Assembly: GCF_004762035.2 (NCBI RefSeq)
Contig: NZ_SIJK02000049.1
Location: forward strand, 1 to 38,405
DNA from: Candidatus Chloroploca mongolica
GTDB lineage: Bacteria > Chloroflexota > Chloroflexia > Chloroflexales > Chloroflexaceae
Direction of reading: 5' to 3'
Length of the DNA stretch: 38,405 nt
Shown piece after piece: positions 8,111-33,803 of this stretch (position 1 is its first letter; each line of letters begins with the position of its first letter). A program made the position numbers and the translations under genes. The notes below the pieces were generated by a model. It saw only the letters and a list, made by a program, of their open reading frames with translations, was not told the DNA's origin and did no database searches.

Positions 8111-8332
8111 GTGGCGACGACCAGTGTGACGCAACACCAGGAAATCCATACCAAATTCAACCTTGGCATGACACGCCTTGAGGCAGCAGCGCAGGATCAG
8201 CGAACCCTGGAACAAGCGCTCCTGAGTTTCCATGAGGCCCTTGAGGATCATCTCAGACTCGTCTTATCACAGAAGGCCATCCTTTCGGCAGAGACACGTG
8301 CGGCAGTCGGTGAAGCCCGACCCCGATGCTAG
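8111..8332 (+). CDS. Small hypothetical protein, probably C-terminally truncated (73 aa)
   Basis: GGAGG at 8101-8105 sits five bases before GTG 8111, which decides this start. The product is helical (MTRLEAAAQDQRTLEQALLS, then LEDHLRLVLSQKAILSAETR) and ends abruptly in ARPRC. The predicted helix register suggests that a longer helical protein was cut by a frameshift near 8305. It is 290 bases upstream of the large module and on the same strand, but the intervening spacing makes co-transcription uncertain. No family was recognised. Confidence 0.4.
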   Translation: MATTSVTQHQEIHTKFNLGMTRLEAAAQDQRTLEQALLSFHEALEDHLRLVLSQKAILSAETRAAVGEARPRC

Positions 8333-8622
8333 GTTGAGAGTGCCCCGCACGAAGAGGCTTGCCACAAGGTTTCGGTCATATCAGTGGCGTTGTTCACGCC
8401 ACGGGGTGGCTCGACAAAAAGCGTTGTCTTTCGGTCACACTCCCAGACGAGATGGTAATGCGATGGTAATTCACCATGATGATAATGGGAAGCATAGGGT
8501 GTCATCTCACGACGAACTCGCGTAAGTTCGGCACTTCGATCTCATACGTAACCAGGGCCGTGTTCATCACGCGTTACGCATCATACATTATGCACCACGA
8601 TGCACAATGAGGAATCAAAGCT
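8333..8622. other. Intergenic region upstream of the NERD-kinase operon
   Basis: No gene is apparent. The last 60 bases are AT-richer (for example CATACATTATGCACCACGAT near 8580-8600) and should contain the promoter of the three-gene operon, but no confident -35/-10 pair or operator palindrome was found. GAGG at 8610-8613 is the ribosome-binding site of the first gene. Confidence 0.35.
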
Positions 8623-11600
8623 ATGGCTGAATTGATCCAGGCCGGTGCGTTTGCAACCGAAGGGGAAAAGGTTACCGCCCAGACGCTACGCGATGGATTG
8701 CCTGATGACTGGATCATCATTACCAATACGCTCTTGCCGCTCCGTGATGGGCGCAGCTTCGAGCTTGATTTCATAGTGCTGGCACGACACCACGTCTTTG
8801 TGCTTGATGAGAAGGCCTGGGGTGGTACGATTACCGGCGATGCTCACGCCTGGCAGTGTGCTGATGGCCGGATTGAGCACAATCCCCTGAAGAAAATGGA
8901 GATGCTCGCGAAGGTAGTCGCGGGTGACCTGCGCCAGCGCCTCTGGCGTGCGCCCAATGACCGCTTTGTTGATAGTGCGGTTATCTTCTCAAATCCCAGT
9001 GTGCACCTGCGCATTGATGATGTCCGCCGCCACACGAAAATTATGCGGCTTGAGCAGGCTTGTGAGGTGCTGCGACAGTGCGATGCACAGGGCCGGGTGG
9101 ATCTGCGGCCTCATCGCGATGCCCTCCGTGCCGCATTCGCAGGTTTTGAACCACGTCCAATTGTGCCCCAGACCATCCAACTCTACCAGATCGATGAGGT
9201 TGAGTCTTCACGGGCGGGCGTACACATCCTCGCGGCGAGTCTGCACGGCCAGCGCTATCGCCTGATGGTCTACGATCTTGGCACCGACCCGTTCCAGCGT
9301 GAACAGCGCCAGGCCTGGTATATGCGTGAGTTTGAGGCACTGCGGGCCTTGCAGACGACCGGGAGCGTGGCCTACGCTGAAGCACCGATCCTCTGGGGTG
9401 AGGCGCAACTGGTTGTACCCGTGCGCTTGCCCGATGGTCAAGCACTGAGTCGGATTCCCTTTCCAAATGATTGCACCACGTTGATCGCTGATCTCCAGAT
9501 GGCTGAAGCTGCCTTCAGGTCATTGCAGCAGATTCATACCTACGAGGTGCTCCACCGGGCGCTCAATCCTTCGGCGATTTTCATCGTTGAACCCAAGCCG
9601 CTCACAGCGGTGTTGAGTGATTTCCACGCCGCCCGGATCGGCGACCAGTCGATTGCGGCCTCGCTCGATCTGCTCAAGCTCGCCGACCCCTATGCTGCAC
9701 CAGCGCTGGCCGCAGGCTATGGCAATGCGACCCCGGCAAGTGACTGTTTTAGCCTGGGCTTGATCTTCCTCGAACGCCTGAGTGCCACACACGTTGAACA
9801 GTTGCGGCTTGGCAGCCAGATCGAGTGGCCGAACTTGTTGCGCCGTTGGGCGGGCATGCCGATAACGCCCCTCGAACGCTTGCAAACCCTCTTGCAAACC
9901 GTGATCGCGCCTGAGGCCGGAGCAGAGCCGCTTGCCGCAGCGCAGATCACTCACGAACTGAACCAGATCATTCGCATGCTTCAGCAAGAAGCCACGCCTG
10001 CCCAGGAATTGATCTTTGATCGGCGCTACCGTGTCAAGCGCAAGCTCGGTCAGGGGGCCATGGCCCGTACCTTCCTCGTCACTGACATCAATTACCCCGA
10101 ACTCGGTTTCTTTGCCGTCAAGCAGTTTCGCAATCCGGCTATTGTGCTGGAGCAAGCTCGCACGGAGTTCCAAACCCTCCAGAAGCTCCGCAGTCGCCAT
10201 GTGCCGGCGATCTACGATATTTCGAAGCCCACCGATGATGTGCATCTCAAGCTGGAATATATTCCTGGGCCGACCTTTATGGAACTGGAAGCGCAGTTTC
10301 CGTTTCCCTTGACGACGTGGTGGGAATATGCGCGTCAATTACTTGATGTCCTCGCGGAGTTGGAACAACACCAGTTGCTGCACCGCGATATTAAGCCAGC
10401 CAATTTGATGCTCCACGAGGAGGAGAACCGCCTTGTGTTGATTGATTTTGGTTTTGCCATTTCACGTGAGCATCAAGGCGGCGCCGCTGGCACCTTGATC
10501 TACCAACCGCCCGAGGCCGCAACGAGCCCGACACCACCACCAGACAGTGATCGGTATGCGGCAGCGGTGGTGCTCTTTCGGATGTTGACCGGCGAACTGC
10601 CCTTTGAAGAGGGGGATCGTCAGCGACCTCGTGCGCCAGCCAGCCTTGCCCCGTTCGATCACGTGCAGCAGCGCGTGGCGGAAGCTTTGCTGTCCGCCGT
10701 CCAACCCCAACCCAGTCTGCGCCCCGCGTCGCTGGCCTTGTGGCGACAGCAGATCGAGCGCGCGATGCTGACCTTGTCTGAAGCAACGAGCGAGCATCGC
10801 AGCCCCCAGGTTAACCCCTGGGCCGCCGCGATCCGTGGGCTCTACCGCAATAGTGAGGGCGGCAATGCCGATAATCGCGGTCTCGATAGCCAATTTGTCC
10901 GCCAAACCTATGTACCGACGAAGCTCGATACCGACCTATTGCCACGGTTGCTGATGCGGCGGCCCCAGGCAATCTTTCTCTGTGGCAACCCCGGCGACGG
11001 CAAGACGGCCTTCCTTGAGCAGGTGCGAACGACGCTGCTGGTTCAGGGTGGGCACGAACAGCAGCACGACGCCAGTGGCTGGGAGATCGTCTTGGCAGGT
11101 CATACCTACCGTAGTTGCTACGATGCGTCTGAGGCCCACGCCGGACGCAGCGCTAACGAGCAACTGACCGCCCGCCTGACGGGGCTTGAGGGGGCCAGTG
11201 CGCCTCAGGTGGCACTTACCGTGCTCGTCGCGATCAATGATGGACGGTTGCTCGACTACCTGGATCATGTGCAAGCAACGTTCGCATGGCTCGCCGCCCA
11301 GTTACGTGCCGCGATGCGTCCGAACAAAAGCATCGATCAGCCGGTCTGGTACGTAGATCTCAAGCAGCGTGCGTTTGTAGCCTTGCCCGATGCTGCCCAT
11401 CCGTCGATTTTCCAGCAGGTGCTGGCCAGACTGGTCGATCCCGCCCAGTGGACGGTCTGCGCAAGCTGTGCCGTCCAGCACGTCTGCCCGCTGGTTCAGA
11501 ACGCCACCCGTCTGCGCCACCCGCACGTGAGCCAGCGTCTCGAAACGCTCCTGCTGCTGGTGCATCTCCGGCGGCAGCGCCACATCACGATGCGCGATCT

Positions 11601-12516
11601 GCGCTCGGCCTTGGCCTACAGCATCACCGGCAACCGCAGTTGCCAGGACATCCACGTCGCCGCTGCAGCGGCTGATGGGGGGGCCAGCCTGAACGCCTAC
11701 CACTACTGGCACCTCATCTTTGCGCCCCACGAGCAGGCCGATGAGGTGCTCCAAGATATACGCAGCCTCGACCCCATTCAGGTCAGCTTGCCGCAACTTG
11801 ATCGCTTCTTGCACGCCCGGCGACGGGCCGATCAGGGCGCGCAACGGCAGACGCTCTTCCATCCCGAGCTCGCCGACGACCTCGCGCCACAACGCTACCT
11901 CGAGCCGCGTGACTGGCTCGACGCGATGAAACGGCGGCTCTATTTCGAGAGCACGGCAACGCTCATACCAGGCTTAAGCTGGCTGCACCTGTTACCGTAC
12001 CGCTATGCAGCGGTATTCTTTGAAGTGCTAGCCGAACGACACCCACTCTACAAGATTCGGGCTCAGATCGCCAATGGAATCTGGCGCTCGGATCACGTGA
12101 CGGTAGACCTGCCCCGTGATCATCTCAACCTGGTGATTGACCACGCCAAGGCGCAACGCCTGATTGTCGCCAAAGAGTTTGAACTCGATGATTTCTTCCT
12201 CCAGATCCAGCAACCCAGGGGAGCCGAAGGAATCGAAGCGCTTCCCGAGGGACTGGTACTCGAACATCGTAATGGCACGCCCAAACTGAGTATCACGCTC
12301 GATCTGTTTGAACTGCTCCTCCGCCTTGACGAAGGCTTCCTGGCTGACACGCCAGAACTGCGTCCGCTGCTTGAGGATCTCGTCCCCTTTAAGAGCACTA
12401 TGTTGCTCGACATGGCAAAAAGCCTGGTTTTGATCGAATCAGGACGGTACCGCCATCGCCTGGAACAGTACCAGGGCTACCTTCGCCTCGTGACTGATGG
12501 GGAGCACCGCTCATGA
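8623..12516 (+). CDS. NERD - pseudokinase - Ser/Thr kinase - DptF-like ATPase fusion (1297 aa)
   Basis: Domains in order: (1) NERD domain, about 5-130, with the PD-(D/E)XK-like residues Asp49 (ELDFIVL) and Asp62-Glu-Lys64 before AW-GG; (2) a kinase-like domain, about 200-460, with HRA311-313 instead of HRD and DFH333-335 instead of DFG, so probably a pseudokinase; (3) a complete Ser/Thr kinase, about 465-720: Gly-rich loop, Lys500, His-Arg-Asp589-Ile-Lys-Pro-Ala-Asn, Asp608-Phe-Gly; (4) a P-loop ATPase, about 755-1297, with Walker A GNPGDGKT at 788-795, an AINDGRLLDYL sensor strand and a CxxC-x5-C cluster (946, 949, 955). Parts 1-3 recall PglW of BREX type 2; part 4 recalls DptF of phosphorothioate-dependent restriction. 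The gene overlaps the next by four bases (ATGA). Likely cytoplasmic; it plausibly senses attack, phosphorylates a partner, and loads the downstream nuclease/translocase. Confidence 0.85.
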   Translation: MAELIQAGAFATEGEKVTAQTLRDGLPDDWIIITNTLLPLRDGRSFELDFIVLARHHVFVLDEKAWGGTITGDAHAWQCADGRIEHNPLKKMEMLAKVVAGDLRQRLWRAPNDRFVDSAVIFSNPSVHLRIDDVRRHTKIMRLEQACEVLRQCDAQGRVDLRPHRDALRAAFAGFEPRPIVPQTIQLYQIDEVESSRAGVHILAASLHGQRYRLMVYDLGTDPFQREQRQAWYMREFEALRALQTTGSVAYAEAPILWGEAQLVVPVRLPDGQALSRIPFPNDCTTLIADLQMAEAAFRSLQQIHTYEVLHRALNPSAIFIVEPKPLTAVLSDFHAARIGDQSIAASLDLLKLADPYAAPALAAGYGNATPASDCFSLGLIFLERLSATHVEQLRLGSQIEWPNLLRRWAGMPITPLERLQTLLQTVIAPEAGAEPLAAAQITHELNQIIRMLQQEATPAQELIFDRRYRVKRKLGQGAMARTFLVTDINYPELGFFAVKQFRNPAIVLEQARTEFQTLQKLRSRHVPAIYDISKPTDDVHLKLEYIPGPTFMELEAQFPFPLTTWWEYARQLLDVLAELEQHQLLHRDIKPANLMLHEEENRLVLIDFGFAISREHQGGAAGTLIYQPPEAATSPTPPPDSDRYAAAVVLFRMLTGELPFEEGDRQRPRAPASLAPFDHVQQRVAEALLSAVQPQPSLRPASLALWRQQIERAMLTLSEATSEHRSPQVNPWAAAIRGLYRNSEGGNADNRGLDSQFVRQTYVPTKLDTDLLPRLLMRRPQAIFLCGNPGDGKTAFLEQVRTTLLVQGGHEQQHDASGWEIVLAGHTYRSCYDASEAHAGRSANEQLTARLTGLEGASAPQVALTVLVAINDGRLLDYLDHVQATFAWLAAQLRAAMRPNKSIDQPVWYVDLKQRAFVALPDAAHPSIFQQVLARLVDPAQWTVCASCAVQHVCPLVQNATRLRHPHVSQRLETLLLLVHLRRQRHITMRDLRSALAYSITGNRSCQDIHVAAAAADGGASLNAYHYWHLIFAPHEQADEVLQDIRSLDPIQVSLPQLDRFLHARRRADQGAQRQTLFHPELADDLAPQRYLEPRDWLDAMKRRLYFESTATLIPGLSWLHLLPYRYAAVFFEVLAERHPLYKIRAQIANGIWRSDHVTVDLPRDHLNLVIDHAKAQRLIVAKEFELDDFFLQIQQPRGAEGIEALPEGLVLEHRNGTPKLSITLDLFELLLRLDEGFLADTPELRPLLEDLVPFKSTMLLDMAKSLVLIESGRYRHRLEQYQGYLRLVTDGEHRS

Positions 12517-14213
12517 AGATTAAATTGCCGAAAGAATTGGTTGGCACGGTCTTTCCGAAAGTCTTTGCCGTTGAACTCAATGACATTGACATCGATATTT
12601 TCCTGCCCTCGCTCTACTTCAAGATTCTTGGTGAGGGCAAATATCGGGCCAAACGCCTCAATGATCCCCAGCAGATTACCCACTACATTAACAATTTAGC
12701 CCAGCACCACCGGATGCAAGGAACAACCACCCTCGAAGGGCGACGCGTGCTTGAGCGCCTGGTACGTACCAGTTTGATCAAGACCGGTGCGGTTGGGCGA
12801 GCGAAGAAGGGTGAGCAGATCCTCGCTGTTGCGCCCTACTCGATCCTAGCCGCTAAGCCTGGTTTTCCAACCGAGAGTCGCCGCCAGCGTGGAGCCGATA
12901 TTTTTCTCTATTTTGCCCTGAAGCGTGTAACCAATGATAAAGATGTTCTCCGCGATCTTATGCGTAACTTTTTCGGGCGTGGGGTGAAATTGCTCCGCTT
13001 ACCAGATATCGGTGGAAGCTACGATGGGAGCATCGAGCTGGATATCCTTTCACACTTGACCATCACCTTTCTTGATGGGTTTGAAGGAACTCGTGTTGGC
13101 AAACAAGGTGATACCGACACGCACCCGGCCTGCCCACGCCAGGAGCGCGAATTAGCTGAAGATCTGGTCAAATACCTCTTTGCCTACAGTGAGCGCATAC
13201 CGACTCAGGCTCTGATTACCTACCTCAAACCGCTGATCAACCTGGAACTTTTTAGCTACTCGTTACGCCTCGTCCATGCGATCAATGCGCTGGTGCGCGA
13301 TCCGAGCCAGTTGCCCCCAGCAATGCGCGAGGATGGTGTTGCCTCGCCGCCTGAGCTTTACCTTGATTTTACCGGCGAAGTTGGTGGCCTGAGCCACCAG
13401 ATGGCGGCTGAGGCGGTGCGTCGCGATATTGAGGCCTACCAGCAGTTCTTTGCCGCTAACCTGCGCCTGCGCCAGCTTGATGTCTACGCTAGAAAGCTCC
13501 AGGGTAGTCTGCGCTACAAAACACCGGCAAGCCAATTACTCCCCACGTCTGCTGATGGGCCTGCGTACCTGCAAGCCATCCTGATGCTGACTAAAAATCC
13601 GGTGTTGAGTTCAGTTGTCGACTCTTATGCCTATGACGACTACGAGAAGATTCTCAAAGCGAATTTCACCGAAGATGCGGACGAGCGAGATGCGGAAGAA
13701 CTCGATCAGTTTGAGCGGTTAACCACTGCTGCGACGAGTGACCTCGATAAGCTGGTCATCCTGCTTGATCTTGGTCAGCGCGGCAAAATGCTGGGCAAGT
13801 ACATGCAATGGTTCGCCAGTGTTGGCGGCATCAACCGCAGCGATGGCCTCCTGCACGGGGTACAACGCAACCGACGCAGTTGGCGCTATGCGCCGAGCAA
13901 CGATCTGCTGGCGGTGTTGGTGCAACTGGCGGCGGTGCGCCTGGCTCCACCCAAGGCTGAAACTGACCAGAAGGTGGTCGCAGAGCTTGGCCTACGTGAT
14001 TTTCTGACCTTCCTGGGACAGCGCTTTGGCATCATCGTTGATCGTCCGCCGCAGCATCTCACCGGGGCTGAGTACCACGCTGCTGCCCGCGACAATCTGC
14101 GGGCCATGCTGGCCCGGCTACGTCAGATGGGCATCTTCACTGACCTCTCAGACGATTTTACCGCCCAGCGGCTTCAGCCGCCCTATGCGAAGAGTCGCGT
14201 ATGCCAAGCGTAA
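12513..14213 (+). CDS. DptG/MAD7-position protein (566 aa)
   Basis: A soluble protein without a recognisable catalytic motif. It starts at an ATGA overlap with the NERD-kinase gene and itself overlaps the following gene by 13 bases, so the three products are translationally coupled and probably form a complex. The N-terminus (about 1-100) begins with KIKLPKELVGTVFPKVFAVE and a Tyr/Arg-rich segment, then an IYF-type helix bundle. The middle and C-terminal parts are long helices with Arg/Leu repeats (AVLVQLAAVRLAPPKAETDQ, then RDFLTFLGQRFGIIVDR), with a winged-helix look at about 515-545. Size and position between a DptF-like and a DptH-like gene match DptG in dnd restriction loci and, from memory, MAD7; this is positional inference. 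Confidence 0.65.
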   Translation: MKIKLPKELVGTVFPKVFAVELNDIDIDIFLPSLYFKILGEGKYRAKRLNDPQQITHYINNLAQHHRMQGTTTLEGRRVLERLVRTSLIKTGAVGRAKKGEQILAVAPYSILAAKPGFPTESRRQRGADIFLYFALKRVTNDKDVLRDLMRNFFGRGVKLLRLPDIGGSYDGSIELDILSHLTITFLDGFEGTRVGKQGDTDTHPACPRQERELAEDLVKYLFAYSERIPTQALITYLKPLINLELFSYSLRLVHAINALVRDPSQLPPAMREDGVASPPELYLDFTGEVGGLSHQMAAEAVRRDIEAYQQFFAANLRLRQLDVYARKLQGSLRYKTPASQLLPTSADGPAYLQAILMLTKNPVLSSVVDSYAYDDYEKILKANFTEDADERDAEELDQFERLTTAATSDLDKLVILLDLGQRGKMLGKYMQWFASVGGINRSDGLLHGVQRNRRSWRYAPSNDLLAVLVQLAAVRLAPPKAETDQKVVAELGLRDFLTFLGQRFGIIVDRPPQHLTGAEYHAAARDNLRAMLARLRQMGIFTDLSDDFTAQRLQPPYAKSRVCQA

Positions 14214-17200
14214 GCCCTCATCTGGTTGAGACGATCCTTGCCGAGACGATTGCCCACCATTTCACGGGAACCGAGCCCGGGCATTGTGTGCGGGTGGATT
14301 TCTTTGAGTTGCCCCAGATTCGCGCCATCTGCACTGCGTTGCAGGCACACGCTCCACAGGTAGCCATTCACGTCCTGGGTACCCAGAACGACGCGCTCAC
14401 GATCACGACCGATCGGGCCATTGAACTGCGCAACCGTAAGCAGGTGCAACTCTGCCTCTTTGTGCCCACCGATCTGGTCGATGCAGCCTTTAGCTCACTC
14501 GCCAATTCGTTTGCCATCCTTGATGGGCGCGCATTGCTGCATACCGCACTCCAGTGCGTGCGCGAACGGCTCTCGCCTCCCGTCCGGGCGATGGTCAACG
14601 ATGTGGTGAGTTGTCTGCGCCTCCCACTACGGGTGAGTGAGAGCCAGAAGATCGCTTTCTGTCAGGCCTTGATCGAACTCGAGGCCCAGGAGCGCCTCGA
14701 CGAGGCGGGGACAGTGCTCTGGCACGTCGGCCTGATCGCTGATCGTGGCGCGGATTTCCGGGCGCGTTTGGATCGCAATCGCCGCTGCGTGATCAAGCTC
14801 GCCATGCCGCTCAAACTGCAAGCTTCGCTGATGGAGCGGATAGCAAGCACCAACGTTGACCCAACGACCACGGCGCAATTGATGCTCTTCTTCCGCGATC
14901 GGGTCATGAACGATCACGTGGCATGGTCACAGGCAATGGCCGCAGGGCATGGGCCAACCTTTGAGCAGTGGATCTTTCCGGTTGAGGAACGCAGCGATTT
15001 GCGCAGCGTGACGTTGCAAAGTTTCGTGGATCGCCAGGGCAAAGTAACGACTCACTCGAAGCTGAAACAACCCGACGGCCCCGGCGGGGCGTTGATTGCT
15101 GAGTATGGCGATCAGGCGAAAGGACTCAGCGTCAAATGGGTGACCGATCCGCCAAAGCCCAAGAATATTGGTGGCTGGCGCGTTGAGCTTGTCCCCGTAG
15201 CCAACCCCGACGATCACGACCTCGATCTGCCCAGCCGCGATCTCCCCGCGAGCCGGGGCAGTGCTACGCTCAAAATAGAGCTCGACTTTAGTGGTGATGA
15301 AGAGAGCCTGCCCGACGAGAGTTTCCAGGTGCGCTTGACCGCGCTCGATCACACTGGGGATGTCCTCCCGAGTGCTGAGGATGGGCAGGATCTTATCGCC
15401 CTCAGTGAAGAGTTTTTCATCGCCAAAGCCGATGAACCGATCAGTCAGGGCAACAAGCGCGAAACGCGTCCTCGCACCGTAGCAAACCTGGCCTTGGCAC
15501 GGCTTGAGGTCGCAAGCGAAACCAAAGCCGACCAGCTTGATGAACAAGAGCCGCTCTGGACAAGCCGCGATCTCGAATATTTCAGCTTGCGGCTTGATCC
15601 ACGGCGCAAAATTATGCTCGGGATGAGCCGTTTGCTCAAGCAATTGGAAGAGCGCACGCTGGCCGAGCCACTCACTTTCGGACGCTACAGCCTCCACCTC
15701 AGCGAGATTGACGAGGCAACCAGTGAACAGATCGAAGTTCTCGCGCCCCCAGCACTCAGTCCAGCGGTCTGGCAGAAATTCCGAAGTCAGCGCGAGCAAC
15801 TCTGTAAGCAGTTGAAGGGAGCCGAGCCGCGTCACCTGGTCTCGGTAGCAGGCTGGAATCTCGAGCTCGCCCGCCGTGCAGAACGCTATGCCAAAGCCTA
15901 CAGCGAGTTGATCGCGAGCCTATCAAGTGATCCGGCGCTCCAAACCGAACTTCAGGTGGCCTTATCGGTAGATACGCTGTTGATCGTGACCCCCAAACGG
16001 GGCGGCGGTGACGAAGTAGCGGTCGTGACCCTGCCTACCCATCCGTTACGGATGCTCTGGTACGCAGCCTACCATCAACTGCTCGGTGAATGGGAACGCA
16101 ACCTGTTGACCTTGAAAGCCAACGACCGCAAGACAGTCCTCGATCTCGATCAACTCAGGTCAATGTCGCCCGCCAATATGCCCATGTTCATCACGCATCC
16201 CCTGGTGGACAAACCACTGCTCCATAGCGCGAACCTCCGCTTTTTCTACGGAATAGCCTTGCCACCGATGCTGGAAGATCCCCAGCGTCGGTTGGCCGAC
16301 CTGGCCGTCATTCTTGGAGATCGCTACGGTCTGGAGCAGCACAGCGATCCGAGTACCCTCCAGTTGGCGGCCCATATCAAGCATTTCCGCGAATTGCACC
16401 CCTACCTGCGCGGCTTAAGCATCACCCAGATCAATGCCGACCGCGGCGATCTGCTAACCGAGAGCCTAGCACGCGTCTTTGCCCAGCCAGATTCGACCGA
16501 AGAGGAGGAACGCGAAGCAGGCGACTTGCCCAAACTCAGCATCTATGCTTACGTGGCAACGGAACAGACTGGTACGGCCCAGGACGTGACGGAACTGCGG
16601 CGGCTCGTGGATGATCAGGTGCGCTTCAATGGGCACGCCTACTTGACGCCAGCGCTGAGCTACGTGCAACGATCGCTGGCGGTGCTGAAGCACGAAACAC
16701 CGCCGGCAGCGCACCTTGCCATTGCCAGTGATCTGATGCAGCCCGAACCGGTCGCACTTGATCGGGCCGATCAGGCTCTGCTTGGCAGCAGCTTCAGTTT
16801 CTATGGGTTGATCTGTCGCCTGATACCCACGTTCACACCCCAGGGCGACCGGCTCTACTGGCAGCAACATCTAATTGGCGACGGGGTGAAAGCCGATCGT
16901 CACCCAATTGACAAAGCCTTCACCGATACACTTGTGAGCACCCAGATCCAGATAGCCCAGGCAAGCAGCCGCAGCCTGGGGGGGAACGCGGATCAGCGGC
17001 TTGGGTTGTGTGTTGAACTCGTCCCCTTCCAGCAGAAGTTGCTCGAACAACTTCATATGCACAGCAGTTGGGTCATTACGATTGATCGCTTCTTTGCGCT
17101 CGACTACTACGATATGCCGCATAACCCCCAGTTGCAGCACCTGGCACGCAAGTATCTCATCGACTACAGCCCCGAATTCACCGACGGAATCGCCCATCGG

Positions 17201-19396
17201 CTCGTTGTCACCACGATGTGGCGCGACGAGATCGAGGAACTCCTTCGTCGAGCGATGGACGAGTTGGGTTTTGCGCAACTGGAGCAAAGTGTTGGCAAGG
17301 TCTTAGATGCGCTCAAACTGGTCTCGGGGCAGTTGGCACTTCATGTCAGTGATCGCAACAACAATGCCGCCGCCGCCGTCGGCTTAGGGATCGTCGTGCG
17401 CCATTTGCAACAGAGTGGACGGTTACGGAACAGTATTCTGGTGCCGGTGGACAGCGCACCTCAGATCTTCCATCGCACCCTTCCGGGTCAGCCGCGCAGC
17501 GAACGACGCTGTGACCTGGCACTCTTTAGCTTCAAGCGTGGCGGAGTCGTGGAGGTGACGTTTATCGAGGTGAAGTGGCGACGTGGGGCGGTGCCCTTCG
17601 AGAGCCTGGCGAGTGATATGCTCATCCAGATGCAAAGTTCGGCGGCGTTGGTGCGCGCCTGCTTCTTCGCTGAGCCGGATCGGGTGGATGGCGTTCTGCA
17701 GCGCGCCCGCCTGTCCAATGTCCTGCGCTTCTACCTTGCGCGGGCCCAGCGCCACGATGCAGTGGCACCTGAAAGCGTGGCTCCCATCCTGGAACACCTG
17801 GGCAAGCTTGAGCGCCGAGAGGTTGAGTTTCACCCACGCTACGAGGGGTACATCATCACGCCGGACAACATCCCTGAGCGCATGCTGCACCCGCAGGAGG
17901 CCACCATCATCGTCCGCAGCATCGCGTCACTGGCTGAGGGCTTTGTCCTGGAGCATGGCCTGCCCGCACGTGATCGCCACGCTGGCGGCGGGAGTTCGAT
18001 GGCTCACGCCACGCCGGTGGAGGCTCCGGCTGCTCCGGCTGCGCCTGCCGCACCCATGGATGGCCCGGTGGCTCACGGCAGTGACCGAGCCTCCCCTGCT
18101 CCTTCAGTGGTTAGCTCGGTGGTTAATGATCCAGGCTTGGCACGGTCAGTCACGCCCGTTGATAGTTCAGAGGCTCACAGGACTGGTGTGGTATCGCATA
18201 CCACACCGGTAGATGGCGCAACGGCCGTCGGCAGTGACCCAGCATTCCCAACTACACCGGTAACTGGTTCAACTACACAAGCTGGATCAGTGAACAACCC
18301 TGCATCGCCAGCCACGCCCGTTGATGGCCCGGTTCCACCCACCATGATCAGCGTCGAACTCGGCACGACCGACGAGCAACCAATTATGTGGCACCCCTCG
18401 GTCAAAGGCAGCCCGCACCTCTTCATCATCGGCATTCCCGGCCAGGGCAAATCGGTCGCAATAAGCAACGTGCTCAGCGATGTGCTCACCCAGCACGTCG
18501 CGCCGCTGATCTTCGATTTCCACGGCCAATTCGCCGACAAGAACGGCCCGCTCGTGCGCGACCACGGCCTCCAGATTCTCGACGCGGCCGATGGGCTCCC
18601 CTTCAATCCCTTCGAAGTGCTGATCCGCAACGGCAAACCAGACTGGCGTACCAACAGCCAGGAGACCGCCGAAGTCTTTGCCCACGTGGTCGAACTTGGC
18701 GGCATCCAGCAAGACGGCCTCTCGCAGGCGATCATGGACGCCTACAAAATCAAAGGCTTTCACGCCACAATGAGCGCCGACGATCTCCCCGAACTTCCCA
18801 CCCCCAGCGATGTCCTGCACTGCATCGAGCGTCGCGAGGCCCAACGCAAAGTCAAAAACCTGGCTGCCCGCTGCCGCCCACTGCTCGAAATGGATCTCTT
18901 CCAGCCAACGCTAACGCCCTTGAGCCTACGCGACGAGATCCGCCACGGCATGGTGCTCGATCTCCATGCCATCCCGTCAGAGAGCGTCCAGATGGCCGCC
19001 GGAGCCTTCGTCTTACGCAAACTCTACCGCGAGATGTTTCTCTGGGGGGAAGCAGATCGCATTCGCCTAGTCATCCTGCTCGACGAAGCCCATCGGCTCG
19101 CCAAAGACAAGACGCTGCCGAAGATCATGAAAGAAGGGCGCAAATACGGCATCGCCGTCGTCGTCGCCAGCCAGGGCATGAAAGACTTTCACCCGGATGT
19201 GTTGAGCACCGCCGGAACGAAAGTACTCTTCCGGGTCAACTACCCCGAATCACGGACCCTCAGCAAATACATCGCCTCGCCACCCAACAAACGCATTGAC
19301 GCGATTGTCGAACAACTCCCCGTGGGCCAGGCCTTTGTCCAGACCCCAGAGATGCTTTTCGGGCGTCAGGTGCGCATGCGGCCACCGGTGGAGTAG
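14201..19396 (+). CDS. DptH/MAD8-like giant ATPase with PD-(D/E)XK-like motif and HerA domain (1731 aa)
   Basis: The first 1050 residues are a large region of unknown fold containing THPLRMLWYAAYHQLLGEWE near 625-650. At about 1085-1160 a beta-rich segment offers Asp1105 ... Glu1123-Val-Lys1125 (CDLALF, then TFIEVKW), a good fit to a PD-(D/E)XK nuclease core. Residues about 1264-1380 form a disordered linker of imperfect 'TPVDG'-type Pro/Thr/Ala repeats. The C-terminal 350 residues are a HerA/FtsK-like ATPase: Walker A GIPGQGKS 1411-1418, a FDFHGQF strand, and Walker B LLDEAH with Asp1628-Glu1629, ending in a motif-rich YPESRTLSKYIA sensor region. DptH and, from memory, MAD8 share size and C-terminal domain. 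Probable role: DNA translocation coupled to cleavage. Confidence 0.8.
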   Translation: MPSVSPHLVETILAETIAHHFTGTEPGHCVRVDFFELPQIRAICTALQAHAPQVAIHVLGTQNDALTITTDRAIELRNRKQVQLCLFVPTDLVDAAFSSLANSFAILDGRALLHTALQCVRERLSPPVRAMVNDVVSCLRLPLRVSESQKIAFCQALIELEAQERLDEAGTVLWHVGLIADRGADFRARLDRNRRCVIKLAMPLKLQASLMERIASTNVDPTTTAQLMLFFRDRVMNDHVAWSQAMAAGHGPTFEQWIFPVEERSDLRSVTLQSFVDRQGKVTTHSKLKQPDGPGGALIAEYGDQAKGLSVKWVTDPPKPKNIGGWRVELVPVANPDDHDLDLPSRDLPASRGSATLKIELDFSGDEESLPDESFQVRLTALDHTGDVLPSAEDGQDLIALSEEFFIAKADEPISQGNKRETRPRTVANLALARLEVASETKADQLDEQEPLWTSRDLEYFSLRLDPRRKIMLGMSRLLKQLEERTLAEPLTFGRYSLHLSEIDEATSEQIEVLAPPALSPAVWQKFRSQREQLCKQLKGAEPRHLVSVAGWNLELARRAERYAKAYSELIASLSSDPALQTELQVALSVDTLLIVTPKRGGGDEVAVVTLPTHPLRMLWYAAYHQLLGEWERNLLTLKANDRKTVLDLDQLRSMSPANMPMFITHPLVDKPLLHSANLRFFYGIALPPMLEDPQRRLADLAVILGDRYGLEQHSDPSTLQLAAHIKHFRELHPYLRGLSITQINADRGDLLTESLARVFAQPDSTEEEEREAGDLPKLSIYAYVATEQTGTAQDVTELRRLVDDQVRFNGHAYLTPALSYVQRSLAVLKHETPPAAHLAIASDLMQPEPVALDRADQALLGSSFSFYGLICRLIPTFTPQGDRLYWQQHLIGDGVKADRHPIDKAFTDTLVSTQIQIAQASSRSLGGNADQRLGLCVELVPFQQKLLEQLHMHSSWVITIDRFFALDYYDMPHNPQLQHLARKYLIDYSPEFTDGIAHRLVVTTMWRDEIEELLRRAMDELGFAQLEQSVGKVLDALKLVSGQLALHVSDRNNNAAAAVGLGIVVRHLQQSGRLRNSILVPVDSAPQIFHRTLPGQPRSERRCDLALFSFKRGGVVEVTFIEVKWRRGAVPFESLASDMLIQMQSSAALVRACFFAEPDRVDGVLQRARLSNVLRFYLARAQRHDAVAPESVAPILEHLGKLERREVEFHPRYEGYIITPDNIPERMLHPQEATIIVRSIASLAEGFVLEHGLPARDRHAGGGSSMAHATPVEAPAAPAAPAAPMDGPVAHGSDRASPAPSVVSSVVNDPGLARSVTPVDSSEAHRTGVVSHTTPVDGATAVGSDPAFPTTPVTGSTTQAGSVNNPASPATPVDGPVPPTMISVELGTTDEQPIMWHPSVKGSPHLFIIGIPGQGKSVAISNVLSDVLTQHVAPLIFDFHGQFADKNGPLVRDHGLQILDAADGLPFNPFEVLIRNGKPDWRTNSQETAEVFAHVVELGGIQQDGLSQAIMDAYKIKGFHATMSADDLPELPTPSDVLHCIERREAQRKVKNLAARCRPLLEMDLFQPTLTPLSLRDEIRHGMVLDLHAIPSESVQMAAGAFVLRKLYREMFLWGEADRIRLVILLDEAHRLAKDKTLPKIMKEGRKYGIAVVVASQGMKDFHPDVLSTAGTKVLFRVNYPESRTLSKYIASPPNKRIDAIVEQLPVGQAFVQTPEMLFGRQVRMRPPVE
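17991..18340 (+). repeat. In-gene imperfect repeats encoding a Pro/Thr/Ala/Ser linker
   Basis: Within the 1731-aa gene, variants of 'TPVDG/S...GS(D/N)(R/P)A' recur about six times (TPVEA, VTPVDSS, TPVDGA, TPVTGS, TPVDGP). Codon-level similarity is partial, so the array seems old or under selection for composition. It separates the nuclease-like part from the HerA ATPase, as a flexible tether would. Confidence 0.7.
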
Positions 19397-19624
19397 AGGG
19401 TAAAGTGATCGATAGATGGTAGTTAAGAGGTTGCTATGAATACTTAGCAAACCTAAACCGTCAATACAAAAAGTCACACCCAAAATTACGAGCACGGATG
19501 GTACCATATCAGTATGGGATCTGCTCTCTCAACAACGGTACTCCCAGCCTACAACCCGCTCTTTCGCGGGCAGCAGAAGATGTAATAGTTGAAGATCGCC
19601 CCCATGACGAGCAAGGATCGTAGC
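19397..19624. promoter_or_regulatory. Spacer between the two modules, probable promoter of module 2
   Basis: This 228-base spacer is AT-richer than the flanking genes and contains a small hairpin TTGCTA/TAGCAA (19431-19450), a palindrome ATGGTACCAT near 19499-19508, and a CCCGC/GCGGG hairpin near 19555-19572. None has a T-tract, so none is a clear terminator. Read-through from module 1 is possible, but the length suggests a separate promoter here. Confidence 0.35.
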
Positions 19625-20755
19625 ATGCCATCCGAGCAGAGCCAACACGTACTCACTGCCAAACGCCGCCACCTTAATGCCCTGGAACTTCAAGCCGCCA
19701 AATTTGGCCTTCACTGTCCGGCCCACATTACCATTGAGATCGAAGATCTGCGCCGTGAGTTAGGCGCCCCACTACCATCTGAGGAGGAGTCACAACCTCA
19801 ACAGAACGCAGCGCAAAGCCCTGGGCCAACCCAAGCCACCGACTCGGCTCGGCCTACAACCGCGCATGAATCAGAACCGGCTGTTGCAGCAAACCAAGAT
19901 AATGACCCCGCTCAGCATTTGAGCGCGTTGCTCGCCAATGCAAAAACACCAAATGCCCTGCGTGAACCTTGCCTCCCATCACTCATCACCCCGCCCCTCA
20001 TCCACATCCCGGCTGGCTCTTTCCGCATGGGCAGCAGCGAAGCGCATCGCCGCTTCACTGAAGCGTGTGAACAACCCCAACATTCCTTGTCGTTACCCGA
20101 CTACTGGATTGGTCAAACGCCTATTACTAACGCTCAATTCCGGCCCTTTGTTGAGGGTGGTGGCTACACCACCCATGCATATTGGACACCACTAGGCTGG
20201 CAGTGGCGTGAGCAGTACCAGATTTTTCAACCGAGGTACTGGGAACATGACCAATTCAACCAAGCCGACTATCCAGTGGTTGGAGTGAGTTGGTTTGAGG
20301 CGGTGGCCTACTGCAATTGGCTCAGCGCTCAGTCTAGCCACCTATTCCGCCTGCCGACAGAGGCTGAGTGGGAGAAGGCCGCCCGTGGCCCTGATGGCTG
20401 GATCTGGCCGTGGGGCAACACCTGGCAGGCAACGGCTTGCAATAATAAAGAATCGGGTTATGATCGACCTACGTTGATCAATCAACACCGATCTGGGGCT
20501 AGTCCCCACGGTGTGTTAGACATGGCTGGCAATGTCTGGGAGTGGTGTTCTACCCAGACCCACAAACCCTATCCGTATGAGCTTGAAGATGAGTGGACGG
20601 AAGCGTACCTTGCAACGCATATCGGGCGTAGCTTACGCGGTGGATCATGGCGTTCGTCCCGCAACCAAGTGCGGGGAGCCTATTGCCACGCAATGGGGCA
20701 GAGCTACCGTTTGGTAGATTTTGGATTTCGGGTTGTGAGTGATTTGAAGGTTTGA
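19625..20755 (+). CDS. SUMF1/FGE-fold protein with short N-terminal helical domain (376 aa)
   Basis: The ATG at 19625 is preceded by AAGGA seven bases upstream; earlier in-frame starts (TTG 19589, ATG 19604) lack such a site. Residues about 5-48 form a short helical domain (RRHLNALELQAAKFGLHCPA, then HITIEIEDLRREL), which I recall at the front of many STAND-associated proteins in Chloroflexi and cyanobacteria. After a disordered linker, residues about 120-375 are a SUMF1/formylglycine-generating-enzyme fold: IPAGSFRMGS, PVVGVSWFEAVAYCNWLS, LPTEAEWEKAARG, GNVWEWC, SLRGGSW, DFGFRVV. The Cys pair that true FGEs carry shortly after RGGS is absent, so it is probably a binding or scaffold module. 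Related domains are frequent DGR targets. Module 2 seems to start here. Confidence 0.85.
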   Translation: MPSEQSQHVLTAKRRHLNALELQAAKFGLHCPAHITIEIEDLRRELGAPLPSEEESQPQQNAAQSPGPTQATDSARPTTAHESEPAVAANQDNDPAQHLSALLANAKTPNALREPCLPSLITPPLIHIPAGSFRMGSSEAHRRFTEACEQPQHSLSLPDYWIGQTPITNAQFRPFVEGGGYTTHAYWTPLGWQWREQYQIFQPRYWEHDQFNQADYPVVGVSWFEAVAYCNWLSAQSSHLFRLPTEAEWEKAARGPDGWIWPWGNTWQATACNNKESGYDRPTLINQHRSGASPHGVLDMAGNVWEWCSTQTHKPYPYELEDEWTEAYLATHIGRSLRGGSWRSSRNQVRGAYCHAMGQSYRLVDFGFRVVSDLKV

Positions 20756-20836
20756 GTGGCATCGCAATCGTTGATGGCTCATGCACAAATCGTTAGGCAT
20801 GGAAGACCAACTAATCGCTTATGTAAGGTGTAACCG

Positions 20837-22285
20837 ATGACCGCGCAATCCACCCCCCATTTTGTTAATCGTGACAATGAAATTCGTCGTATTATCACTA
20901 TTGTTCGATCAGATATCCGAAAATCTACGCTAATCAACGCGCCATCTGGGTTTGGTAAGAGTGCATTGCTTGAAAAAGTTATTGAAAAGCTCCAAGGAGA
21001 ACATCGAGATTACGCCTACGCACTTGTCAGTGCTCATTCCATAGCTACAATCGAGGAAATTGCACGCTTATTTTTACAAGAATTTAAAATACCCGAATCA
21101 GAGGATTTACCAAAAAATCCAGGCCGTGAATTAGCTCGTTGTCTGAATAAGCGGTTTTTCAACTCCAACACACTCGATGTTAATATCACACGTGTTGTGT
21201 TGATAGTAGATTTTGATGTGTTCCCGGAAGATATTAATAAAATTATTGTTGATTTCATTTCTGATATACGCGAAAACTTAAAACACCTGGAAAAATCGCC
21301 TAAAGTCGACTTGATTGTTGCTGGAAAAATATTAAAAACCGTAGAACTCTTGTCTTACCCAGAGCTTGTTACGCTTTCACCGCTTACCTACGAGCATGTT
21401 TATGCAACAGCAGCACAATATCTCAGAGGGCACCATAGTCAAGCCATAAGCGAAGCGGCGGCCCATGTCTTCTATCTAACTGGTGGCCATCCGCAATGTA
21501 TGGCTGCCTTACTGAATGCTTTGGCTGACAGTAGAGACGCACCAGACATCTATTTTGACCCGAAAAGCAACCGACAGCACTGGGACACGCAAATCCAACC
21601 CGTCTTTGAGAAAGTCGAACGGGAGATACCGAGTAATTTATCTGATTTCGCTGATGTGATTACGGCTTTAAGTGTTTATCGTTATCTTGATAACGCAATT
21701 CTGACAAATCATTGTGATTCTTACCCTCTTACTGGCTGTCCTACCTGTGAGGATCTAAAACAGAAACTGACTGCAGCTTACATATACCCAACAAATAATC
21801 GCGGCGTATATCTGTGTGATGGTGTCTATCGCAGATTACTTACGATTAAACTGCGCTACGAGCAACCGGAACGACTGCGAACTCTCTGCGAAACATCTGC
21901 CACCAGATGTTTGGAGAAAATTGCGACGGCGAACGAACCAAAACTTTGGGCGCTTGAATATCTGTTTCAACGCCTCCAGGTGTTAAGCTTGGAACCATTG
22001 GAGGATGCCGCTGATCGTCAAGCTGCGCTCGAAGGTTTTTTGTTCGATGAAGTGAAACAAGTTGTTGACGCCCTGTATCAGCACCAACGAAATTGGCACG
22101 ATTTCACGGAACTGGTTGCGTTGGTTACGCAGCAACTATCTCAGCCGAGCGAATCCGATCAAATGGGACATTGGGAGCTTAGCTTCTTGTTCAATTATGT
22201 CTTTCGTGAGAAAGCATATAATGAAGAACTCATTCGCAAACTCACGCATGCGCTTGAGCAAGAGCGTGATCGTTACCGTTCATAA
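20837..22285 (+). CDS. AAA/STAND-like ATPase (482 aa)
   Basis: AAGGTG lies a few bases before ATG 20837. The N-terminal 230 residues form a P-loop ATPase: Walker A APSGFGKS 35-42, Walker B VVLIVDFD with Asp125, a sensor strand DLIVAGK near 157, then a helical lid with HVFYLTGGHPQ around 215, typical of STAND/MNS-type ATPases. The C-terminal half is helical (winged-helix plus bundle), without TPR periodicity or a recognisable effector. The gene is markedly AT-richer than its neighbours, with A/T-ending codons, so it seems to have joined the cluster from another source. It lies 81 bases after the SUMF1 gene and 48 before the next ATPase, consistent with an operon. A partner or regulator of the larger STAND protein is a fair guess. 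Confidence 0.7.
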   Translation: MTAQSTPHFVNRDNEIRRIITIVRSDIRKSTLINAPSGFGKSALLEKVIEKLQGEHRDYAYALVSAHSIATIEEIARLFLQEFKIPESEDLPKNPGRELARCLNKRFFNSNTLDVNITRVVLIVDFDVFPEDINKIIVDFISDIRENLKHLEKSPKVDLIVAGKILKTVELLSYPELVTLSPLTYEHVYATAAQYLRGHHSQAISEAAAHVFYLTGGHPQCMAALLNALADSRDAPDIYFDPKSNRQHWDTQIQPVFEKVEREIPSNLSDFADVITALSVYRYLDNAILTNHCDSYPLTGCPTCEDLKQKLTAAYIYPTNNRGVYLCDGVYRRLLTIKLRYEQPERLRTLCETSATRCLEKIATANEPKLWALEYLFQRLQVLSLEPLEDAADRQAALEGFLFDEVKQVVDALYQHQRNWHDFTELVALVTQQLSQPSESDQMGHWELSFLFNYVFREKAYNEELIRKLTHALEQERDRYRS

Positions 22286-22333
22286 GCATGATCGCAGTAC
22301 AGCCCGGTTGAATATCCAGAAAGAAGCCATAGT

Positions 22334-25300
22334 ATGAGCAAGCAAGTACCTTTCATTGGACGGGCGGAAGAACTAACGATAGCCAAGCAACTCTTGCTTG
22401 AGTTTGGTGTCACGAACTTTCTCTTTCTAGTTGCTGATGGTGGTATTGGTAAGACACGTTTCCTTGAAGAGTTTGGTAACCGTATACGTAATCGAGCGTT
22501 TGAATCCTCAAATCTGGATACAGCGTATCGGATTACCGTCGTACAAGAGTTTACCGACTCGGAATGGTCTAGCGAATTTCAGCGCGGCATTCATACGATG
22601 GCGCAAGAACTTGGCATACACATTACTCAAACTGACGCTGAGCACAGCGCCGACCGTATGGCGTCTGATCTGGCAGGTGCCATCGCAGAGAAACCTGATG
22701 CGATCATTGTCAGTCTAGGCTCTTACCAAGGAGTAGAAGCACAAATTCAGCAGGCCCTTGCCCAGAATATCCCGGTACTCACCTTTGATAATTATCTGAA
22801 AAGTATTGAAGGGGCAGCTGTAAAAGTTTTTCAGGAAGATCTTCAGGGTATTCAACAGATTGCTAATCCTATCCTGAAAGAGATGAATTATACAGGTAAA
22901 TTAGCTATTGTTTGGACACAGCAAAACAAAGTTCAAAAGCGACGGGTTGATGATTTAAGGCGTATTTTGTTGAATTATAATCAAATTGAACTGCTTGATG
23001 TTGATTGTGAGCTCAATGAACGATCAGCAGAAAGTTCAACTGAACAGACCATTGTTCATTTAGAAAAACATCCCGACACCAAAGCCATCTGGTGTGTTTT
23101 CGATGAGTATGCCCGTGGTGTGATTAAAGCACTCAAAGCATTGAAGCGCACTGATATTAAAGTATACAGTCTTGATCTTTGTCCTTCTGATCGCACCTTA
23201 ATGTTGGAAGAGGGGAGTCCTTGGCAGGCTTGTGCCGCTATCGATCCAGCCGAGGCTGGTCGCTTAATGGTTCGCTTGGCTTTGCAGGAGATTGTGGTGA
23301 CCCCAACCCCTCCGGATCGTTACCATTCAATTCCTCTCAAACTTGTAACCCAGAAAGATCTACGCCAGTTAACGCTTGAACCAGATCGAACTTGGTATAG
23401 TCTCGATGATCGCGGATGGAGTTCTGAACTCCGCGCCATTGTTGCGCATCGTCAAAACCCACGACAATCACTCTTTACTGTAGCCGAAGTAATTGATTTT
23501 GCTGACCCGGATGTAGCGATTGAGGGTGCCATTGAGCAGCGCCTTGCTGCTTTGACTGGCCAGATGATGGCCCCAGAAGATTTGATCGCACTTCTGACTT
23601 TGGAAGAACGCTCACGATTGCTTCAGCATGAGGCAACTGAACGTCAGCATTACAAGGTACAACAGGCGCTAATCGATGCAATCAATCAACGGTGTCAGAC
23701 CCAACGCCTTGTGCTCTGCTTTGATACGACTGAGCGGGCAACTCAAAAACTGCTAGGAAGCAATCTGATTGATATTCTCTGCCAGTGCAAAAACCTGCTG
23801 GTGATCTTTGCGGGTCGACCTGAGCCACCAATCATGGCTTGGTTGATAGACCAGATCAAGGACAAGCAGCAGCGTGGTAAGATCATCCGTTGTGAATTAC
23901 CAGCCTTCGATGCGACGTTGAGTCGCCAATATTTGCAAGAAAAGCAGCAGAACCTGGCAATTGAGGCTGATGATGAGTTCTTAGATCGCTTAGCTAAACT
24001 TGCGCTTGGTAAGCCAATTCTGCTTGATCTGGTCATTGAATATATCTATCGCAATTTGGAGTTTGACCCAATTCCATCATACGCTACGCTGGAAGCGATG
24101 GATCAACAGGAACTACACGAAGCTGCCACCGCCTTTGAATCCAACCTCGTGCAGCATATCCGACGCCTGCAGCAAAAGATGGATCTGGTCGTCTTGCGCC
24201 TCTCGCGCATCTACCCACTCTCACAATCTGGCCTCGCCACTCTGTTTAAGCTATCTGAGAATGAGGCGGCTTCGCTTTTTGCAAAAGCCTGTACCTATGC
24301 TTTTATCCGCATCATCCAGCGATCTGATAGTCCTGAGATCGAGTTGCACGATGAGATGCGACGCCTCATTGAGCACCACTTCTGGCCCATCTTTGATCCT
24401 GATAAGGCGCAACGCCGTCGAGATAGCCAACTCGCCTATAGATTTTATCAAAAACAGGATCAAGCGTTCAATGTTGGCATAAAAGCCGTAGATGCTCAGT
24501 TGCGTTCAATCGATGCACAGTTGCAAAAACTTGAGACACAAACTGTACCTGACGAGCGCCAACTCAAGGAGTTGGAAGCCAACAAATTGCAATTAAAGTT
24601 TGAGCAGTTAGCTATCCGACGCCGACGCCAGACCGTGACCGAAAACTGGGTCAAGCATATGCTCTTTGCCCAGCAAGAGGATGCCTTTGAGCAGTGGGTT
24701 GCCCTTGTTGAAAAAGTACGGAGCGGACGGCACTATCCATTCATAGAGCGCCTCTGCAAGATACTTGAGTCATATCGATCTCAACTAAGCCTCACTGAGC
24801 AGCGCGATTTTGATTTTTACTATGCTCGTACCTTGCTTGATTTGGGGCAAACGAGCGAAGCGACTCAACGACTAGAGGAATTACTTGTCACCCATGCCGA
24901 TGCCGATGCAAAATTTCGCTCCAACATCTACAATCAACTTGGGGTTGCCTATCAACGCACGAATCAACTGACGAGGGCGATAGAAAACCAGCAGCAATGT
25001 CTCGATCTGATCGACTCTAGCAACCTACGTGATCGAGCAAGCGTGCTTAACCAGATTGGATACTACTACCGACTCCTGTCAGAAGCAGATCCGTCACGTC
25101 GGAATGATGCCCAGGTTAGATATGAGCAGGTGATTGCGCTGGCTCATGAAGCCTTGCCTTCCGATGATGAGGTTGGGCAACGTCAAATGCTTGATTTGAT
25201 CGCCAGTACCAACAATAACCGCGCTTTTCTTTATGGCATGAGTCACGATTATGATCGGGCCGAAATCTTGCTTCAGCAGGCTTTGGCAACTTGGCGTAGA

Positions 25301-26200: not shown

Positions 26201-26207
26201 CATATTT

Positions 26208-27710: not shown

Positions 27711-27728
27711 AGGCAATAGCTTTACCTT

Positions 27729-27794
27729 ACACGCAAGATATCGTTGCCGTGTATGTACCAAACACGCAAGATATCGTTGCCGTGTATGTACCAA
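27729..27794. repeat. Two perfect 33-bp tandem copies
   Basis: The unit ACACGCAAGATATCGTTGCC... (33 bases) is present twice without a mismatch at 27729-27761 and 27762-27794, 18 bases after the radical SAM stop codon. Its length is a multiple of three, so both strands keep an open 11-residue repeat (forward TQDIVAVYVPN, reverse GTYTATISCVF). No credible start or ribosome-binding site makes it a gene. The rest of the stretch up to 28036 holds no recognisable feature. Confidence 0.8.
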
Positions 27795-28036
27795 TTGCCT
27801 TGGACGAGCATCGCAGGGCCAGGCCCTGCTGCTTGCCGTGCCTGCGCGTCCTGGCGTCAATCTGAAAGCCATGCACCACACGACGAGCACGCGCCTGGTG
27901 CAACGGGAGTGCTCGCACGCCGATGATCGCTGATCTATCATCGCGCGACGCGGTGGAGGTATGCAAGGACGCAGATCGGATCGCTGGCCTCGTGAGCACT
28001 GAGGTGTGGCACAGCACCTCGCCCCAATGCACACCG

Positions 28037-33732: not shown

Positions 33733-33803
33733 GCGTTGTGCCCAATCGCTAAGCACACATCTGTAATCGGCAAGCGCACTCGGTGAAGCTAGGGGAAGTG
33801 GCG

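Follow-up and report, generated by a model that had tools for sequence, protein, structure and literature searches.

A stand-alone three-gene locus of the DndFGH, SspFGH and MAD6-MAD7-MAD8 type in Chloroflexota: a candidate restriction complex, possibly licensed by infection cues

The window analyzed here, a stretch of 38,405 nt from the filamentous bacterium Candidatus Chloroploca mongolica, comprises one entire contig (G000:C104). Between positions 8623 and 19396 lie three overlapping forward genes, designated F, G and H and referred to below as the trio. Gene F (8623..12516; + strand, as are all features given below) encodes a protein of 1297 aa of the MAD6 or DndF-SspF type that consists of a NERD domain, a pseudokinase, an active Ser/Thr kinase, a P-loop NTPase core and a C-terminal domain. 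Gene G (12513..14213) encodes a putative DNA-recognition subunit of 566 aa of the MAD7 or DndG-SspG type, and gene H (14201..19396) encodes a nuclease-translocase of 1731 aa of the DndH or MAD8 type. F and G overlap by 4 bases, and G and H by 13 bases. The same three genes, with these sizes and overlaps, had been described in an earlier reading of the sequence alone, and the ORF coordinates agree with that description. A further ORF upstream of the trio (8232-8525) is shared with the sister species (G260, whose trio is identical to that of Candidatus Chloroploca sp. Khr17, L039). Since this ORF matches no Pfam family and has a pN/pS of about 0.65, computed from 65 synonymous sites, it was not counted as a gene.

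Protein F combines a kinase-bearing half with a nucleotide-binding half. Pfam searches detected NERD (61.8 bits) and protein kinase (132 bits) domains. The NERD nuclease-related domain (8659..8991, residues 13-123) retains the E-x-D-F ... D-[ED]-K residues in all 13 sequences that cover NERD in clade S, the lineage of 16 genomes delimited below. The region that follows (9190..10002, approximately residues 190-460, with approximate limits) is taken to be a pseudokinase because HRD is replaced by HRA in 13/13 sequences. The next kinase (10027..10623, residues 469-667) is of the active Ser/Thr type, with HRDIK..N kept in 13/13. The SspF/DndF-type P-loop NTPase core (10918..12036, residues 766-1138) has the Walker A motif GNPGDGKT in 14/14 sequences and carries a C-x2-C-x5-C insert; the PADLOC SspF model matches precisely these residues, with 113 bits. 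As a whole, F passes the NCBIfam MAD6 model (497.6 bits, cut-off 460), and the PADLOC models for mad6, PglW (152 bits) and MkoA (115 bits) were matched as well. The NCBIfam DptF model (TIGR03238) was missed, with 15.3 versus 50 bits, and the NCBIfam PglW model by far, with 153 versus 990 bits.

Protein G passes the NCBIfam MAD7 model (484.9 bits, cut-off 410), and PADLOC likewise assigns it to mad7. In profile-profile comparisons, the clade S profile of G matched the profile of the MADS group described below (E 5e-36) and the SspG-type profile (E 1e-7). The AF2 model of G, for which the triple winged-helix fold of DndG was the point at issue, had a pLDDT of 37, too low for a structure search. 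A contig scan with the G protein gave three loci, every one from Chloroflexota. A tblastn search of 72,556 plasmid records at E 1e-5 gave no match to G, and plasmid-borne spread of the trio was rejected on these grounds. For IMG/VR viral contigs, pattern matches were present, none of which was confirmed as a relative.

For protein H, PADLOC reported DndH (119 bits, at the C-terminus), HerA and mad8. The NCBIfam MAD8 model matches the N-terminal region of H (14279..14845, residues 27-215) below its cut-off (51.9 versus 175 bits); two other clade S H proteins reached 73.1 and 45.5 bits, and the H protein of genome G089, used as a positive control, 232.5 bits. The top solved-structure match of an H profile made from 11 sequences was DptH (7es4, E 1e-14). 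In profile-profile comparisons, clade S H aligned over the full length with H of the MADS group (G089, G346, G062 and G027; E 4.5e-99) and over residues 557-1174 with the SspH type (E 6e-14). The catalytic parts of H are a PD-(D/E)XK restriction-endonuclease-like domain (17228..17920, about residues 1010-1240, with D1105...E1123-V-K1125) and a HerA/FtsK-type ATPase (18347..19375, residues 1383-1725, with the Walker A motif PGQGKS and the Walker B motif LDEAH). The nuclease D is present in 15/15 H proteins, the E and K in 14/15, and both Walker motifs of HerA in 15/15. The exception is H of G100 (L071:6410-11599), in which the nuclease E and K are gone and the motor residues are kept; the kinase lysine region of G100 F deviates, too. 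In G148 (L055-L056), H is split, and about 3.6 kb with other ORFs separate G from the rest of H, from codon ~263 on. An AF2 model of H residues 440-1240 was usable only from about model residue 620 to the end, with block pLDDT values mostly of 63-87. In keeping with a nuclease-like fold, this more confident end aligned to McrC (best Z 8.3) and, at Z values of 5.3, 5.1 and 4.3, to Bse634I, BsmI and FokI; Z below 8 may reflect a common arrangement only. A Foldseek search with the model found nothing at E <= 0.001, and the part of H in which inactive methyltransferase and target-recognition domains were sought was modeled with low confidence.

The sequence-only reading had likened the trio to DptFGH and to MAD6-MAD7-MAD8 and had seen PglW-like kinase parts in F. 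Profile searches with these families uphold the family call, with MAD6 and MAD7 above the cut-off and DndH/DptH matches for H, and the PADLOC PglW match upholds the likeness of the kinase part; the likeness does not reach as far as the MAD8, DptF and PglW cut-offs of NCBIfam, all of which were missed.

To delimit the lineage to which the trio belongs, a MAD7 profile search was run on 400 genomes of Chloroflexota, the genome of the window included; genome searches were confined to this phylum. Altogether, 34 genomes matched, 18 of them above the cut-off. Neighborhoods were examined in all genomes that scored above 150 bits, 21 in number, and in five with lower scores; the other eight of the 34 were weak matches outside this set. 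Sixteen of the 21, or 16 of the 400 genomes, constitute clade S, which spans nine genera (G000, the genome of the window, G260, G288, G364, G068, G059, G050, G148, G108, G132, G293, G358, G352, G043, G100 and G009; G364 is K. racemifer, L041). The trio is cut by a contig end in G288, G009 and G132. In two further genomes of the 21, G089 and G027, MAD6-7-8 is immediately preceded by MAD2- and MAD5-type genes. G089 (L043:6689-10713) represents a Chloroflexota MADS locus, with tandem MAD2 methyltransferases (1036 and 792 bits) followed by MAD5, all three above the cut-off; G027 is slightly below (MAD2 716 versus 720 bits, MAD5 359 versus 400 bits). G346, G062 and G150 are divergent and were left unclassed. 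In G346 (L047:5135-8998), a protein of 1287 aa without a Pfam or NCBIfam match at E 0.001 is encoded directly upstream of the divergent MAD6-7-8, at the position expected for MAD5. Among the weaker loci, G052 has SspB, SspC, SspD and SspF according to PADLOC, G134 and G012 have clustered SspB/SspC/SspD/SspF copies, and G281 has part of the set; SspG and SspH of these four were assigned from gene position. The fifth weaker locus, G375, was left unassigned.

In the tree of G, the 16 rows of clade S lie on one side of a branch with support 72/99, and a single origin was recovered in 67% of the bootstraps. In the tree of H, a quick tree of 14 clade S rows that leaves out the split G148 gene, the corresponding branch has an SH-aLRT of 100. 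G089, G027, G346 and G062 group together outside clade S in both trees, and G150, which has a long branch, is placed with them in the tree of G but not in that of H. The Ssp-type rows form a third group, and profile-profile matches connect all three groups.

In the window, Pfam and PADLOC scans of 20 further, longer ORFs detected neither a DNA methyltransferase nor a specificity subunit, and no gene of the dnd or ssp type, in line with what had been stated from the sequence alone; neither SspBCD nor BREX genes were seen. Genome-wide searches for N6_Mtase, Eco57I, N6_N4_Mtase, C5 methylase, PAPS reductase, MAD2 and MAD5 placed no match on the window contig (for N6_Mtase, among the 21 of 23 own-genome matches listed). 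The trio locus is stand-alone. This part of the earlier claim can be extended to the whole lineage: a comparison of neighborhoods across Chloroflexota revealed no linked methyltransferase-family match in 15 of the 16 clade S loci within the fetched flanks, which extend at least 8 kb on both sides in 10/16 loci and less than 1 kb upstream in four. The one locus with such a match is that of G358 (L063), where the trio is directly downstream of a BREX-like operon; this label rests on BrxL and a methyltransferase-like frame, since the PglZ match of this genome lies away from the trio. BREX as an obligate partner was rejected, as PglZ was found in only 4/16 clade S genomes, and the only match in the genome of the window is on another contig, C12. 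In K. racemifer, an Eco57I-type gene follows H at a distance of about 16 kb, outside the flank that was fetched.

Modification genes could also act in trans. Neither MAD2 nor MAD5 was found above its cut-off in any of the 16 clade S genomes in genome-wide searches. MAD2 matches below the cut-off were found in 15/16 genomes (best 186 versus 720 bits, in G352) and are read as generic methyltransferases; weak MAD5 matches, specificity-subunit-like and generic, were found in 11/16 (best 50 versus 400 bits). The PAPS-reductase family, to which SspD and presumably also DndC belong (the latter assignment being supported by the overlap of SspD and DndC in PADLOC), has no match in the genome of the window and is absent from 9/16 clade S genomes, this one included; the model recovered 14/14 controls, and an SspD scores 43 bits. 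Therefore, a phosphorothioate mark is very unlikely for this genome, and a phosphorothioate mark made in trans was rejected here, while 7/16 clade S genomes do have some match to the family. DNA methyltransferase families, by contrast, are widespread: matches to N6_Mtase, Eco57I and N6_N4 were each found in 16/16 genomes and matches to C5 methylase in 10/16, and the genome of the window has 23 N6_Mtase and 23 Eco57I matches in overlapping sets. G009 was considered as a methyltransferase-free member of clade S and dismissed, with two N6_N4 matches and one C5 match. Thus, a host methyl mark made elsewhere in the genome could exist throughout the clade. The sequence-only reading had concluded that a stand-alone version would need another signal to tell self from non-self. 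This step does not follow from the genome-wide searches in trans: generic methyltransferases are encoded elsewhere in this genome and in the other 15 of the clade, although no MAD2 or MAD5 passed the cut-off. For the genome of the window, the lack of a PAPS-reductase-family match makes phosphorothioation very unlikely.

The open frames of the trio were then compared between the window and G260. Both genomes have the same locus, with 91% identity for the upstream nuclease-LTD gene, 87-94% for the operon and 97% for the downstream PIN/antitoxin pair. The dN/dS ratios are 0.16 for F, 0.16 for G and 0.15 for H, and range from 0.10 to 0.33 for the other pairs tested. Judged by these sequence comparisons, the trio is intact, conserved and under purifying selection. 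The differences are not evenly spread along the operon. In a mosaic tract (11923..15677) that includes the C-terminus of F, all of G and the N-terminus of H, the synonymous difference is 0.54 versus 0.22 elsewhere in the operon, a value reached by 0/1000 block shuffles; minor synonymous peaks outside the tract are located at F 401-500 and H 601-700. The nonsynonymous signal is weaker (56/500 shuffles). In the genus g61, the synonymous peak is in G at residues 78-127 for G068/G050 and G068/G059, which gives positions only because a single-block best segment makes the shuffle uninformative (500/500), and for G059/G050 it is at G residues 326-425 (18/500 shuffles). For two more distant pairs, the synonymous peaks are at H 1477-1576 (G068/G108, 286/500 shuffles) and at F 551-850 (G108/G148, with H left out, 11/500 shuffles). 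DNA or invader recognition has been assigned to the corresponding domains of DndFGH (PMC10853773), and by analogy the tract from 11923 to 15677 probably holds the readers. No linked modification gene that could have changed along with the replaced tract was seen in the window or in G260. An enzyme that is licensed by a mark would presumably have to acquire a new, matching mark when its specificity changes. A swap of readers with no modification gene linked to them is more readily explained if no matching mark spares self.

The third genome of the genus, G222, has no MAD7 match. Instead of the window interval 7878-28322, it has about 3.7 kb with an ORF of 1063 aa (L088:258-3992) that matches no Pfam family at E 0.001; the join was inferred from one contig that ends at window position 7704 and another that starts at 7699. 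The trio is thus an accessory element in a variable slot, as the slot has other content in G222. The slot is flanked by the non-specific endonuclease/LTD gene and by the PIN/antitoxin pair. It also includes, at window positions 19404-27991, an 8.6-kb insertion with a GC content down to 44-52%, compared to about 60% around it, which is absent at the same place in G260. This insertion encodes an FGE-sulfatase (SUMF1-like), an ATPase, a protein of 1288 aa with a periplasmic-binding domain and TPRs, and a radical SAM protein with weak similarity to the viperin profile; in some conflict systems, variable sensors have been described to have FGE domains as their targets (PMC10907252). Further downstream (33783-35654), a SWIM zinc-finger protein of 623 aa matches the PADLOC candidate defence family PDC-S62 (57.7 bits, residues 23-151).

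We propose that the trio acts on its own, as a restriction-type complex against invaders that belongs to the DndFGH/SspFGH/MAD6-7-8 superfamily and is licensed by an infection cue. As a whole, this model, which is built on sequence comparison, seems to us somewhat better than an even bet. Recognition of invading DNA or products thereof would fall to G, to the C-terminal domain of F and to the N-terminus of H. ATP would power a switch, the P-loop domain of F, and a translocase, the HerA motor of H, and nicks or cuts would be made by the PD-(D/E)XK domain. The NERD and kinase domains of F might gate the complex via phosphorylation; alternatively, they might be a second effector, one that damages the cell itself. 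Self DNA would be spared because an infection cue, and not a dedicated host mark, triggers the complex; this is the step of which we are least sure. The MAD6 and MAD7 matches above the cut-off, the profile-profile matches of G and H, the conserved catalytic residues, the low dN/dS ratios, the lack of MAD2 and MAD5 above the cut-off and of a PAPS-reductase-family match in the genome of the window, the scarcity of PglZ and the swap of the tract with no linked modification gene seen all argue for the model. Against it stand the methyltransferases in trans in 16/16 genomes, the MAD2 matches below the cut-off, the smaller synonymous peaks outside the tract and the mark dependence of SspFGH, the nearest well-studied relative, which alone is toxic to cells without phosphorothioate (PMC8092258). 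More tentatively, and with somewhat less than even confidence, we suggest that clade S may have given up DNA marking in favor of an infection-sensing, kinase-gated F-G-H machine, in which a reader cassette of F C-terminus, G and H N-terminus could be exchanged as a unit, with no need to match a modification enzyme.

The main competing explanation is a split MADS, licensed by methylation: the trio would provide restriction, and the methyltransferase and specificity genes would lie elsewhere in the genome, be it a solitary or a type I/II enzyme in trans. G089 and G027, in which such genes are directly upstream of homologous MAD6-7-8, provide a precedent, and methyltransferase-family genes in every clade S genome, the weak generic MAD5 matches in 11/16, the BREX-like neighbor in G358 and the Eco57I-type gene of K. 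racemifer supply candidates. However, neither MAD2 nor MAD5 passes its cut-off in any of the 16 genomes, a linked match is confined to one locus within the flanks fetched, the putative reader tract was exchanged without a linked methyltransferase gene, and among the clade S genomes searched no single type of enzyme in trans was shown to track the trio. We consider a methyl mark in trans a possible but rather unlikely explanation and favor licensing by an infection cue over it.

The two other readings concern what the complex does and whether it does anything. If the trio were a hub of abortive infection, the kinase and NERD domains of F would be the main effector, killing or arresting the cell after detection of an invader, and restriction of DNA by H would be secondary. 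The retention of the kinase HRD and of the NERD residues in 13/13 sequences is consistent with this, and the NERD-pseudokinase-kinase module, which heads PglW in identical form, has been proposed to be a suicidal co-effector in DndF and PglW (PMC10853773, PMC12839542). The nuclease residues of H, kept in 14/15 proteins, and its motor residues, kept in 15/15, nevertheless argue that the attack on DNA matters, and we hold a primary role of the kinase and NERD domains to be improbable. Decay of a former MADS or Dnd system after loss of the modification genes might be suspected from the lost nuclease E and K in G100 and the split H in G148. The open frames, the dN/dS ratios of 0.15-0.16 between the window and G260 and of 0.10-0.33 for other pairs tested, and the occurrence in nine genera as a single lineage in both trees (H SH-aLRT 100 without G148; G 72/99) speak so clearly against decay that this is by far the least probable reading; as a pseudogene reading it was rejected on residue conservation and dN/dS.

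Studies of how DndFGH, SspFGH and MAD6-8 spare self have dealt with marked versions, and comparative genomics has led to the proposal of stand-alone ones. In Chloroflexota, homologous machines occur in three states: some have MAD2/MAD5, some have Ssp modification genes, and others have neither of these linked to them. This makes the question of self-sparing testable by swaps of parts between relatives. If clade S has indeed given up marking, it would be an unmarked sister of MADS and SspFGH within one phylum, and one machine could be compared in nature under a methyl mark, a phosphorothioate mark and no mark at all. If the unmarked state is real, infection cues alone can license a restriction complex.

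Neither the architecture nor the stand-alone idea is new in principle, as both are already present in Rakesh, Aravind and Krishnan 2024 (PMC10853773). There, a NERD domain fused with an inactive and an active kinase to DndF is described, DndFGH is proposed as a stand-alone system in a model with several sensors, and DndFGH is reported for 1798 taxa, of which the full set of eight dnd genes is found in only 316. The name MADS is not used in the main text of that paper, and the passages of PMC8569181 on the distribution of dndFGH hold nothing on clade S. What is new is that the lineage, within the flanks seen, consistently lacks a linked modification gene and that its putative reader tract has been exchanged. 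Neither a conserved MAD6-7-8 lineage without MAD2/MAD5 nor an exchanged tract was found in the open-licence literature, outside of which the original MADS paper falls.

Among the known systems, MADS shares with the trio the gene order, the MAD6 and MAD7 models above the cut-off and an H that aligns over its full length to that of the MADS group. In contrast to MADS, the trio misses the MAD8 cut-off, and MAD2 and MAD5 are absent from the locus and, above the cut-off, from the genome. With DndFGH/DptFGH in the broad sense (PMC10853773), it has in common the adjacent F, G and H in this order and of these sizes, the P-loop F with the same N-terminal fusion, an H with REase and HerA domains, and the lack of a modification module; it differs in that F misses the NCBIfam DptF model and that a link to phosphorothioate is very unlikely. 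SspFGH is similar in the SspF match of the F core (113 bits) and in the profile matches of G and H to the four Ssp-type loci, but the trio has no SspBCD in the window and no PAPS-reductase-family match in the genome, and it has an extra NERD-kinase half on F. The comparison with PglW of Type 2 BREX is the reverse: the C-terminal half of F is DndF-like, the NCBIfam cut-off for PglW is missed and no BREX genes were seen in the window, whereas the NERD-pseudokinase-kinase half, identical in PglW (PMC12839542), is common to both.
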